Source of the DNA: a virus
DNA length: 64,000 nt
Virus record (IMG/VR): IMGVR_UViG_3300046683_000929
Span: 34,181-98,180 of that record
Strand: one strand, 5' to 3'
How positions within the stretch are numbered: the stretch's first letter is position 1; every line of letters starts with the position of its first letter. A model generated the notes under the pieces. It had not been told where the DNA came from. It made no database searches and saw only the letters and a program-made list of their open reading frames with translations. The position numbers were made by a program, and so were the translations under genes. Positions 2,543 to 64,000 of the stretch are shown one piece after another.

Positions 2543-2617
2543 TCCAATGGATAGGATTCGAACCTATTAAGCCGCAAAGCAATGGATTTACAGTCCATCC
2601 CAATTCACCGTCATTGG
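2543..2617 (-). tRNA. tRNA-Tyr(GTA)
   Basis: The anticodon arm is ATGGA/TCCAT around CTGTAAA, giving anticodon GTA. The T arm is ATAGG/CCTAT with TTCGAAT. The acceptor CCAATGA/CCATTGG has a mismatch at its base, and the discriminator is A. A 14-base variable region fits the type II form of bacterial tRNA-Tyr, but the D region is unusually short. No CCA is encoded. It is the last of the five-tRNA operon. Confidence 0.85.
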
Positions 2618-2636
2618 AGCCAAAGGATATTAAGAG

Positions 2637-2719
2637 CGGAGAGTATAGGACTCGAACCCTGCGCTTACACGCCGCGCCTGTTTTCAAGACAGGATGTTCA
2701 CCAATGAACGCTACTCTCC
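2637..2719 (-). tRNA. tRNA-Ser(TGA)
   Basis: The acceptor is GGAGAGT/ACTCTCC with discriminator G. The anticodon arm CCTGT/ACAGG surrounds CTTGAAA, giving anticodon TGA. The long GC-rich variable arm is typical of tRNA-Ser. No CCA is encoded. Confidence 0.92.
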
Positions 2720-2725
2720 AAGTTG

Positions 2726-2808
2726 CGGAAAATCTGGGATTCGAACCCAGGCAACCTTTCGGTTGTACAGATTAGCAATCTGCTGCCTTACCACTCAGCC
2801 AACTTTCC
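2726..2808 (-). tRNA. tRNA-Ser(GCT)
   Basis: The acceptor is GGAAAGT/ATTTTCC with discriminator G. The anticodon loop TTGCTAA gives GCT. The long variable arm (CAACC, GAAA, GGTTG) is typical of tRNA-Ser. It lies between the Leu(TAA) and Ser(TGA) tRNA genes. Confidence 0.93.
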
Positions 2809-2812
2809 TTTG

Positions 2813-2893
2813 TACCCCATCCCGGACTCGAACCGGGACGCCGAAGCATAAGATTTTAAGTCTTACGTGTCCTACCAATTTCACCAATGGGGC
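2813..2893 (-). tRNA. tRNA-Leu(TAA)
   Basis: The anticodon loop CTTAAAA gives TAA. The acceptor GCCCCAT/ATGGGGT ends in a G1-U72 wobble, with discriminator A. The T arm is CCCGG/CCGGG with TTCGAGT, and the variable arm has 11 bases. It starts only three bases after the first tRNA of the operon. Confidence 0.92.
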
Positions 2894-2896
2894 ATG

Positions 2897-2970
2897 TAGC
2901 CTGCCTCAGACTCGAACTGAGAACATCTTGATCCTAAATCAAGCGTGTCTGCCAATTGCGCCAGCAGGCC
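2897..2970 (-). tRNA. tRNA-Leu(TAG), short variable loop
   Basis: The anticodon arm CTTGA/TCAAG surrounds TTTAGGA, giving TAG, which reads CTN leucine codons. The acceptor GGCCTGC/GCAGGCT has a G1-U72 wobble and discriminator A, as in the neighbouring Leu tRNA. The variable loop is only five bases, so this is type I, although bacterial Leu tRNAs are normally type II. Its 5' end is three bases after the T run of the attenuator. Confidence 0.85.
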
Positions 2971-38434: not shown

Positions 38435-39133
38435 TTACGGCAATTTACCGATGATATCACCATGCATGCAAATACTCACTACATCACCAGAAATTTCACG
38501 CTCATACAATGAAGCATAATCAACCACAACCATATCGCCAGGCTGCATAGGACTATCCGGATGAGAAAATAAAACCTGCCTTATAACCAACTCACCGGCT
38601 GTTGATGGAATTATCAGCCCGGAATCAGAACGATCAAATTCTCCCTCAAAATCTACATAGTTCATGAAAACATAAGGGAAGTTGGGTATAATTTCATTGC
38701 CCTTAATGACTCCAAATATGGTCGACGCATTTTTCAAGTCACCTTTGTTGTACTCGTTTACCTCAAATTTGGCAAACTTACTGGCAGACATGCGCTTGCT
38801 TTCCGTGTAGAACTCATTACGGGCCTCACAGCGAACTAATTTCTTTCCGCCAATATTAGATATCACTTTCCCGCCATCGGTGTCCACACTGTAATCTACA
38901 ACCACCTCATCGCCGGGTTTAATCCATGCAATACCATCACCAACTGCAACTATTCGGGCAATACTCACTCCCTGCTCATAGTGCTCATCGTATAATCCAG
39001 ATTCCGGCATAGCCAGCGACAACTTCATGGTTGCACCTGATGCTAACGTGATATCCTTATAGAATTTCCTGTCATGGTCATCTTTAAGAATTTCAACAAT
39101 AGCATAGCCGGGTATAGTTGTATACTCCTGCAT
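38435..39133 (-). CDS. Tandem double GroES-like protein
   Basis: A 232-residue protein with two GroES-like halves. In the first, YAIVEIL, ARIVAVGDGIAWIKPGDEVVVDY and KKLVRCEARNEFY correspond to the three main strands of Cpn10. In the second, YVFMNYV, SDSGLIIP (the place of the mobile loop), PMQPGDMVVVDY and SICMHGDIIGKL repeat the pattern. Double Cpn10 proteins are known from chloroplasts (Cpn20). It lies directly after another GroES-like gene and before the portal gene, with a full GroEL 4 kb upstream. It may cap the phage chaperonin in an asymmetric ring, or be a capsid-assembly factor of the same fold. Confidence 0.6.
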   Translation of the reverse strand: MQEYTTIPGYAIVEILKDDHDRKFYKDITLASGATMKLSLAMPESGLYDEHYEQGVSIARIVAVGDGIAWIKPGDEVVVDYSVDTDGGKVISNIGGKKLVRCEARNEFYTESKRMSASKFAKFEVNEYNKGDLKNASTIFGVIKGNEIIPNFPYVFMNYVDFEGEFDRSDSGLIIPSTAGELVIRQVLFSHPDSPMQPGDMVVVDYASLYEREISGDVVSICMHGDIIGKLP

Positions 39134-39591
39134 TATTGTTTGTTTTTATCCTGGCGGCTACGGTTATCAAATTGACCGGGGACGTATGGATCTTTATTTA
39201 TTTCTTCTGTACAACTATCATACAATGCTTTTTGCAATTCCAAAAAATCTTCATCTTCTTTTTTGTCGGGTACAAGCTTTGTGAATTTTTCAAATTCCTC
39301 TATAGCCATTGGCGGACGCGGAGAACCGGCATATATATCCCCTTCACGAAGTACAGTTACTTCCCTGCCACCAATCATTAATTCAAATCCGTAATCACGT
39401 CCAAAGATTATTTTTTGACCAGGGAAAACAGATTTACAGTCGGGTCCGGCAACTATGACAATACCCTTGTTAGGTTTTTCCTTTTCAGTTTCAGGAATAA
39501 TAACGCCCCCCGCTGTTTTATCTACAGTTTCGTCGCGTTCGATAAAAACCCTATCAAAAAAGGGCTCAAGTTCAAGTTTTGGTGTTTCCAT
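39133..39591 (-). CDS. groES: GroES-like co-chaperonin
   Basis: A 152-residue protein. PFFDRVFIERDE, DKTAGGVIIPETEKEKPNKG and IVIVAGPDCKSVFPGQKIIFGRDYG match in order the first strand, mobile loop and dome strand of Cpn10, which is about 97 residues long. About 50 extra residues at the C-terminus are charged and probably disordered. The mobile loop keeps the hydrophobic GGVIIP that inserts into GroEL. The ATG shares its base with the previous stop, so it is co-translated with its double-domain neighbour. Location between terminase and portal suggests a role in capsid assembly. Confidence 0.8.
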   Translation of the reverse strand: METPKLELEPFFDRVFIERDETVDKTAGGVIIPETEKEKPNKGIVIVAGPDCKSVFPGQKIIFGRDYGFELMIGGREVTVLREGDIYAGSPRPPMAIEEFEKFTKLVPDKKEDEDFLELQKALYDSCTEEINKDPYVPGQFDNRSRQDKNKQ

Positions 39592-43129: not shown

Positions 43130-44701
43130 TTATTTTATATTGAGCAACAGGCACTCTGTAGTTAACATCAACCCGGCTATTGACGCTGCATTTTCCAACG
43201 CCTCTCGTACTACTTTTGTCGGATCAATAACGCCGGCAGCAATAAGGTTTTCATATTTATCGGTACGTGCATTGTAACCAAAGTCACTTTCACCTTCAAG
43301 TATCTTTTTGTGAACCTGGCTGCCGTTAATACCTGCATTTTCGCAAATCTGAAATAGGGGAGCCCGCAAAGAATTAATTATAACTTCAACGCCCTTAAAT
43401 TCATCTGAAGTATATTCTGATTTTAATTCTGCATACTGAAGTGCCCTTATATAAGCAATACCTCCACCGGCAACTATCCCCTCTTCAACTGCTGCCCTGG
43501 TAGCATGTACTGCATCGTCGATACGGTCCCTTTTTTCATTGGCCTCAATTTCGGTTGTGGCACCTACATATATTGTGGCTACGGATCCGTCCAGGTTAGA
43601 TACCCTGGCTTTTAACACTGATTTATCATCGTCGCCGTGCGCAGCTTCGATTGCCAGTTCAAGGTCCTTTACGCGGGCGCTGATTAGTTCCGGATTGCCT
43701 TTGCCGCCAATAATAGTTGTGCTATTCTGGTCAATGATAATCCGGTCGGCCTGGCCCAAGAAAGAAAAGTCAATCTTTTTTAATGCAACTTCATTTTCAT
43801 AGGCAACTTTACCTCCAGTTACATAGGCGATATCCTCCATGATGTGGTGACGAAGATCTCCGTAGCTGGGTGCGGTAACCGGCGCTATTTGCATGCCATC
43901 TTTTTTATTAACCGCAATTACATTCATAGCGGCAGGATCAAACTCATCGGCAATAATTACGATTGGTTTTCCTGAATTTAACACAAACTCCATGGTGCCA
44001 ATGAGCTGCTCCATGGTACGGACTTTTTTATCATATAGCAATATCCATGGGTTATCAAACTCGGCGGTTTGCTTTACCTGGTTGGTCATGAAGTGCTGAT
44101 GGATGAGACCCTTGTCAAACACAAAACCCTTTGAGAATTTAAGCTCTGTTTTTGAACTACTCGAATCCTCAACATGAATAGCGCCGTATTTTCCAACCTT
44201 ATGCATGGCTGCAGCTATCATTCCGCCAAGTTCTTTGTCGTTGTTGGTAGATACCATGGCCACGTTAAGCAGAGTTTCCTCATTGCCATCTACAGCGATG
44301 CTTTGAGATTTTATATGATCAACAACTGCGGCTACTGCCATATCAATGCCGCGCTTCAATGCCATTGGATTAATGCCGGCAGATATCTCTTTCAAGCCCT
44401 CTTCGAAGATAGCCTGGGCAAGCACCGTCGCCGTTGTGGTACCGTCGCCGGCGCTTTTAACCGTTTTTATGGCAACCCCTTTCATGAGCTGCACACCTAC
44501 ATTAACCAGGGGATCTGTTACCTCAACATTACTGGCCACCGTAACTCCATCCTTTGTAATCATTGGCCACCTGCCATCCCTGTCAATAACTACGTTACGC
44601 CCCTTTGGACCCAGTGTTACCTTTACCGCATTAGCTACAGTATCCACTCCCTGCTTTAATAAGTTGCGAGCGTCTTCGTTGTACCTTACTTCTTTGTTCA
44701 T
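43130..44701 (-). CDS. groEL: GroEL chaperonin
   Basis: A 523-residue full chaperonin. ATPase residues are intact: TKDGVTVA near residue 51, AGDGTTTAT near 86 and DDAVHATRAAVEEGIVAGGG near 397. The apical and intermediate domains look complete. It ends at LTTECLLLNIK, where cellular GroEL continues with about 25 residues and the Gly-Gly-Met tail, so this tail is absent. Phage GroELs are known from giant Pseudomonas phages. Two GroES-like proteins lie 4 kb downstream beside terminase and portal, so the phage probably folds its capsid or tail proteins with its own system. A hairpin stands just before the start. Confidence 0.97.
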   Translation of the reverse strand: MNKEVRYNEDARNLLKQGVDTVANAVKVTLGPKGRNVVIDRDGRWPMITKDGVTVASNVEVTDPLVNVGVQLMKGVAIKTVKSAGDGTTTATVLAQAIFEEGLKEISAGINPMALKRGIDMAVAAVVDHIKSQSIAVDGNEETLLNVAMVSTNNDKELGGMIAAAMHKVGKYGAIHVEDSSSSKTELKFSKGFVFDKGLIHQHFMTNQVKQTAEFDNPWILLYDKKVRTMEQLIGTMEFVLNSGKPIVIIADEFDPAAMNVIAVNKKDGMQIAPVTAPSYGDLRHHIMEDIAYVTGGKVAYENEVALKKIDFSFLGQADRIIIDQNSTTIIGGKGNPELISARVKDLELAIEAAHGDDDKSVLKARVSNLDGSVATIYVGATTEIEANEKRDRIDDAVHATRAAVEEGIVAGGGIAYIRALQYAELKSEYTSDEFKGVEVIINSLRAPLFQICENAGINGSQVHKKILEGESDFGYNARTDKYENLIAAGVIDPTKVVREALENAASIAGLMLTTECLLLNIK

Positions 44702-63502: not shown

Positions 63503-63532
63503 CAAACATAACAAAGATTTTCAACAAACAAA
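63503..63532 (-). promoter_or_regulatory. Bacteroidota promoter of the replication operon
   Basis: TATGTTTG (63503-63510) is a match to TAnnTTTG, and TTTG (63529-63532) lies 18 bases upstream. Spacing and both elements fit. The start of transcription should be near 63496, giving a short leader before the ATG at 63466. Confidence 0.8.
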
Positions 63533-63551: not shown

Positions 63552-63873
63552 TTAATGTAACATTAACTGCCATTAATGTTACATTAATTTTAATGCAGCA
63601 TTAACCACTATTAATGTAACATTAAATATAATTAATGTAACATTAACTACCATTAATGTAACATTAACCACTTTTTATGGGTTAATGTTACATTAACTAC
63701 CATTAATGTAACATTAATTATACCCACAAAAAAACTAAAATCAGTAAAAATCAAAATGTAACATTAACTGCCATTAATGTTACATTAACCATGGTTAATG
63801 CAGACATTAACTACCATTAATGTAACATTAACCACTTTTTAGGAGTTAATGTTACATTAACTACCATTAATGT
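63552..63873. repeat. Iteron array, about 14 copies of a 15-bp palindrome
   Basis: The unit is TTAATGTAACATTAA (centre A or T). Copies begin at 63552, 63573, 63590 (variant), 63611, 63632, 63653, 63682, 63703, 63753 (partial), 63774, 63795 (variant, one base longer), 63817, 63846 and 63867 (half). The commonest step is 21 bp, two turns of the helix, so all sites face one side. Phased iterons next to an initiator, a helicase and an RHH gene indicate a replication origin or a partition-type site. Confidence 0.85.
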
Positions 63874-63879
63874 GCGCAG

Positions 63880-63902
63880 TAGGATAGGATATGATAGGAT
63901 AG
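63880..63902. repeat. Short AGGAT direct repeats
   Basis: Four AGGAT-like units in 23 bases, just beyond the iteron array, followed to the window end by about 95 bases of very A+T-rich sequence that could act as an unwinding element. No gene is seen from 63904 to 64000. Confidence 0.5.
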
Positions 63903-64000
63903 TTATTCTCTATATAGATTATTTTAATAAGTATTTAGGGAGAGAGAATTTTTAAAAGAAAAAAGTTTGAAAAAAAAATTGCAAAATTGCTTGATTGGAT

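Follow-up and report, generated by a model that had tools for sequence, protein, structure and literature searches.

A fourteen-site dyad iteron array upstream of a DUF4373/Lin1244 initiator operon as a probable phage replication origin

The window, i.e., the whole stretch of 64,000 nucleotides that was analysed, covers bases 34181 to 98180 of a viral record that is 98,180 bp long; the right ends of window and record coincide. Close to this end an array of dyad iterons is located next to an operon encoding a putative ribbon-helix-helix (RHH) protein, a DUF4373/Lin1244 replication initiator and a DnaB-type helicase (Table 1). The array is only about 130 bp away from the record end and its far side is partly cut off.

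Table 1. Features of the array, its flanks and the adjoining operon (window coordinates).
Feature	Position	Strand	Remarks
Dyad iteron array, 14 sites	63552..63873	.	proposed initiator-binding part of the origin
Perfect 15-mers	starts at 63552, 63573, 63611, 63632, 63653, 63682, 63703, 63774, 63817, 63846		
Degraded array copies	63590, 63753		2 mismatches each
16-bp variant TTAATGCAGACATTAA	63795..63810	.	2-bp centre; identical to in-gene iterons of the DUF4373 loci L041 and L151
Terminal left half-site of the array	63867		
70-bp array unit	63640..63709	+	duplicated at 63804-63873, 97% identity
AGGAT direct repeats AGGATAGGATATGATAGGAT	63881..63900	+	in the place where relatives have AGTAAAGTAAAG; equivalence suggested by position
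A+T-rich flank to record end	63901..64000	.	candidate unwinding region
Operon promoter TTTG-N18-TATGTTTG	63503..63532	-	Bacteroidetes-type, by consensus match only
Putative ribbon-helix-helix protein, 131 aa	63071..63466	-	Pfam RHH_5, E=0.059, weak
DUF4373 / Lin1244_N (PF14297) replication initiator, 351 aa	62032..63087	-	Pfam E=2.1e-17
DnaB-type replicative helicase, 509 aa	60494..62023	-	Pfam E=7e-92

Within 322 bp the array contains 14 sites, i.e., ten perfect dyads of the form TTAATGT-W-ACATTAA (TTAATGTAACATTAA or its reverse complement), two degraded copies, one 16-bp form and one terminal half-site, which agrees with the about 14 copies in 320 bp that an earlier sequence-only reading of this DNA had counted. 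The sites follow each other at centre-to-centre steps of 21-21.5 bp in nine cases and of 29 bp in two, as was stated in that reading, and additional steps of 17 bp and 50 bp occur once each. The 29, 17 and 50 bp steps correspond to 2.76, 1.62 and 4.76 turns and rule out one continuous helix face for the array. A common helix face is kept within blocks of sites only, and the proposed phasing on one face is valid to this extent. The 97%-identical 70-bp duplication suggests how the array might have grown. Allowing for up to three mismatches, the array motif gives 32 matches compared to a mean of 7.3 in shuffled sequences, and one perfect dyad with 7-bp arms is present in 10 copies compared to at most one across 300 shuffles. 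No further copy with up to one mismatch exists anywhere in the 98,180-bp record, and no other dyad of the genome is repeated. The latter would also be in agreement with a parS-like cluster serving the ParB-like protein of this phage (396 aa; L012:1588-2778, genome 19088-20278; HTH_ParB E=1.7e-5), since ParB-family sites are dyads. However, the parB-like gene is about 20 kb off if the record ends join, no ParA was detected in the record, and a parS-like cluster leaves unexplained that the motif is common to DUF4373 genes, making it an extremely unlikely explanation.

The presence of a DUF4373 initiator and of DnaB next to the array, assumed from the sequence alone, was confirmed by Pfam. PF14297 is present in a single copy in the genome, the distance from its gene start to the array is 465 bp, and the PHROG families matching the protein carry the labels replication initiation and replisome organizer. 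A Foldseek search with the DUF4373 model resulted in no significant PDB match, and its significant named viral matches belong to its own family; a winged-helix fold thus finds no Foldseek support from the PDB or from outside the family. The best DnaB matches from 'Bacteriophage sp.' records resemble contigs of bacterial chromosomes and were rejected as phage relatives. Searches of viral and genome contigs via the RHH protein, DUF4373 alone, the terminase and pairs of 1-bp-centred motifs found no close phage relatives. For the 131-aa protein the proposed RHH assignment remains weak, with the low-scoring RHH_5 match, and RHH_1 gave no match; the AF2 model, run without an alignment, has a pLDDT of 40.

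RHH proteins bind tandem repeats in partition sites, and tandem sites adjoin the putative RHH gene here. The array was also considered as partition centromere, on which the RHH protein would act as a ParR/omega-like adaptor segregating the phage genome as a plasmid. However, no ParA-type ATPase was found in the possibly incomplete record (PF13614, PF01656), the RHH assignment is weak, and the half-site follows DUF4373 genes also in loci that have no detectable relative of the 131-aa protein. The centromere that the sequence-only reading had offered as an alternative or addition to an origin thus found no positive support and is regarded as very unlikely.

On the side facing the record end, the AGGAT repeats and the A+T-rich end described before are both present. 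AGGATAGGAT at 63881 occurs only once in the genome, and the flank with the AGGAT repeats has an A+T content of 75-78%, the array itself of 68-82%. On the other side of the array, the operon promoter follows at a distance of about 20 bp. This had been described as a strong promoter; a sigma-70 scan gave no fit, and what does fit is the Bacteroidetes form, read on the minus strand from 63532 to 63503. The terminase resembles terminases of Flavobacterium and Cellulophaga phages (22% identity), which together with this form of the promoter makes a host from the Bacteroidota likely.

In the genome the genes at about 28-98 kb are directed leftward with few exceptions, those at 1-28 kb rightward. A search for direct terminal repeats of the 98,180-bp record gave none; if the record ends join, the array sits at the divergent switch of these two gene blocks. 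The whole-genome GC-skew analysis suggested earlier placed the minimum of the cumulative skew, raw and detrended, at genome position 98015 within the array, and the detrended maximum at genome position 27848. The skew fits an origin; it serves as supporting evidence only, because it coincides with the switches in gene direction.

Several other features of the genome were recorded. A Pistol ribozyme (RF02679; 41.1 bits, gathering score 34.5) is encoded between early phage genes at L011:1994-2059 (genome 1994-2059, plus strand). A hammerhead-like core, CUGAUGAG ... CGAAAC, is found at L011:362-428 of the genome (plus strand), folding into a three-stem junction (z -2.27) and giving no match to an Rfam hammerhead; it is near the record start and, provided that the record ends join, also near the array. 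Judged from the translations, two phage genes in the neighbourhood of the terminase gene encode GroEL and a GroES-like protein (window 43130-44701 and 39133-39591). Moreover, four tRNA-like genes (Rfam tRNA) are clustered at window 2543-2970 on the minus strand, and a stand-alone response-regulator receiver domain is encoded at L012:11505-11903 (PF00072, E=7e-10).

For comparison, 167 DUF4373 loci were collected from phage records, viral contigs and genome contigs, which dereplication reduced to 131. In an unsupervised repeat search TTAATGTNNACATTAA was recovered from within DUF4373 genes, and TTAATGT-NN-ACATTAA is present between gene start and +600 in 78 of the 131 dereplicated loci with 152 copies, all of them with a 2-bp centre. 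Controls with permuted half-sites had a mean of 1.0, the sole high one (51) being the motif itself displaced by one base. The motif was not found in 244 kb covering the 2 kb upstream of DUF4373 genes and was found once in 231 kb downstream of them. A reciprocal, motif-first scan of viral contigs resulted in 14 close-pair loci. In 12 of them the pair falls within a DUF4373 gene, and the remaining two represent an 18-bp tandem repeat with the same half-site, ATATTAATGTATACATTA, in viral contigs that do not encode DUF4373 (L186:5717-5750 and L197:6703-6754). The genes carrying the in-gene element span phages of Bacillota and Bacteroidota. Within the domain, copies are found at codon 67; most copies are located in the linker following it, at +370 to +490; steps of 21 bp are most common (51 cases), followed by 33 bp (34 cases), and nearly all are multiples of three. 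In the Parapedobacter locus L136, which encodes the DnaB most similar to that of the window among the loci (47%), the DUF4373 gene directly precedes dnaB and contains, in DNA of 51% GC, the perfect copy TTAATGTAGACATTAA at +382 and another with one mismatch at +415.

Overall, the in-gene element is found 200-500 bp past the start codon, and this location bears on the question whether the array in the window might be an operator only, serving for repression of the operon by either the RHH protein or the initiator and having no origin function here. The short distance to the promoter would allow this, and in other systems replication genes are preceded by small genes for repressors, as orf904 is by orf56 in pRN1 (PMC4234260). 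However, the relatives have the element at this in-gene location, in our judgement 14 sites over 320 bp far exceed what an operator needs, and short repeats and the GC-skew minimum adjoin the array. A sole operator function is therefore considered very unlikely.

Most in-gene copies code for peptides resembling VNVDIN. Coding constraint as source of the motif was ruled out by silent-site tests: 72 of 93 VNx[DNYH]IN peptides have all four silent motif bases, compared to 2.9 expected from codon usage, and the conserved DYFPLD, for comparison, is written in 83 spellings among 121. The silent codon positions being held, the constraint on the in-gene iterons acts on the DNA. The same is true for a second element, AGTAAAGTAAAG, which is located 3' of the iterons and spells SKVK: serine is encoded by AGT in 81/81 cases (background 0.20), valine by GTA in 81/81 cases (background 0.27), and SKVKE has three spellings in 53. 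In its longer form, AGTAAAGTAAAG(GAA), the frozen silent positions were observed at about +430 to +530 of the DUF4373 genes L024-L183. This element perhaps supports strand opening.

The TTAATGT half-site is not universal, as 58 of 137 DUF4373 loci lack it. In 32 of these 58 a match of at least 13/16 was found at a lag of 21 in the same linker region, and no other lag tested gave more than 11, with TTAATTC, TTTCTTC, TTATTCC and AAAATGT as alternative half-sites. These differing half-sites at a constant lag suggest that the iteron sequence drifts between loci, while step and place stay. Dyads with a 1-bp centre on 21-bp steps are present in the DUF4373 genes of L159 (TTTCTGTTACAGAAA), L199 (TTTCTTCCGAAGAAA) and L122 (TTAATTCAGAATTAA), weakening the objection that arises from the 1-bp centres of the array; a relative having arrays of TTAATGT half-sites with a 1-bp centre was not found among the DUF4373 loci and in the contig scans.

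As a summary, the array very probably is a replication origin, consisting of the predicted binding iterons of the DUF4373/Lin1244 initiator, which seem to have left the gene and to have been expanded to 14. The origin reading made from the sequence alone is thus well supported, because the same half-site, the 21-bp step and adjoining short repeats are found inside DUF4373 initiator genes. As in iteron origins, similar sites at about helical spacing are accompanied by a nearby initiator gene, and the window shows a PF14297 initiator and TTAATGT dyads on 21-bp steps, as the DUF4373 loci do; it does not show the in-gene location and AGTAAAGTAAAG after the iterons, and a 2-bp centre is found in one copy only. 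The following points speak against an origin of this type: the initiator has 19-29% identity to its relatives over the full length, the centres are mostly 1 bp compared to 2 bp in all 152 copies of the relatives, the array is outside the gene, and AGGAT differs from AGTAAA. In a wider sense, it is likely that DUF4373 initiators of Bacillota and Bacteroidota phages use an in-gene two-part origin, composed of 21-bp-stepped dyad iterons followed by AGTAAA repeats, with an iteron sequence that drifts between lineages and a step and layout that stay, and that it was extracted here and amplified to a 14-site intergenic array adjoining the operon promoter.

By analogy to SPP1 gp38/oriL and lambda O, initiator dimers would bind to the 15-bp dyads, side by side at 21-bp steps, and wrap the DNA into a nucleoprotein complex. 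The AGGAT/A+T-rich flank might then open beside the array and allow loading of the phage DnaB, which is encoded by the next gene of the same operon, so that the origin would fire. In most relatives the origin element is found inside the initiator gene, with 1-4 iterons and AGTAAA repeats. In the window it would have been shifted into the intergenic DNA preceding the promoter of the operon, growing to 14 sites. No iteron was found in the DUF4373 gene of the window, the best site having four mismatches, and for this reason it seems that the origin left the gene and was not duplicated. With no reading frame to keep, the array could take steps of 29, 17 and 50 bp. Its distance to the promoter would also allow for feedback repression, i.e., initiator binding at the array could autoregulate the operon, and the RHH protein possibly acts as a second operon repressor.

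Proteins of the DUF4373/Lin1244 family are widely distributed among phages, prophages and phage-like plasmids. Their recognition site is seemingly undescribed in the open-access full text, where the family name was met in two unrelated papers only, and older papers on temperate Gram-positive phages may describe individual in-gene repeats. The comparison offers a testable recognition site and origin layout for this family and, with the AGTAAA element, a concrete candidate for strand opening. Moreover, one DNA element would be constrained within the coding sequence of many phages and freed outside the gene in another, suggesting that DNA recognition is separable from coding constraint.

Among known systems, the closest are the in-gene iterons of DUF4373/Lin1244 initiators, e.g., of Listeria phage B054, Bacillus phage Pavlov and Parapedobacter L136. 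These have in common with the window the TTAATGT/ACATTAA half-site, the dyad symmetry, the 21-bp step, the initiator family and short purine-rich repeats by the last iteron, and L136 in addition the adjacent DnaB. The array differs in its position outside the gene, in having 14 instead of 1-4 sites and mostly 1-bp instead of 2-bp centres, and in AGGAT replacing AGTAAA. With pRN1, an archaeal plasmid encoding another replication protein, the operon layout alone is compared: a small repressor gene (orf56) precedes the replication gene (orf904) in one operon (PMC4234260). In ori-lambda, initiator-bound iterons are combined with an A+T-rich region (PMC7466680); there, four iterons are located in the middle of gene O, and the likeness to the window is one of layout. 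Finally, gp38 of SPP1 binds to direct repeats of oriL beside an AT-rich unwinding element (PMC6316719). SPP1 differs by the location of oriL within gene 38 and by its separate loader gp39, and it resembles the window in having a phage DnaB-family helicase and, as is proposed for the array, an initiator that binds repeats beside an AT-rich unwinding element (PMC6316719).
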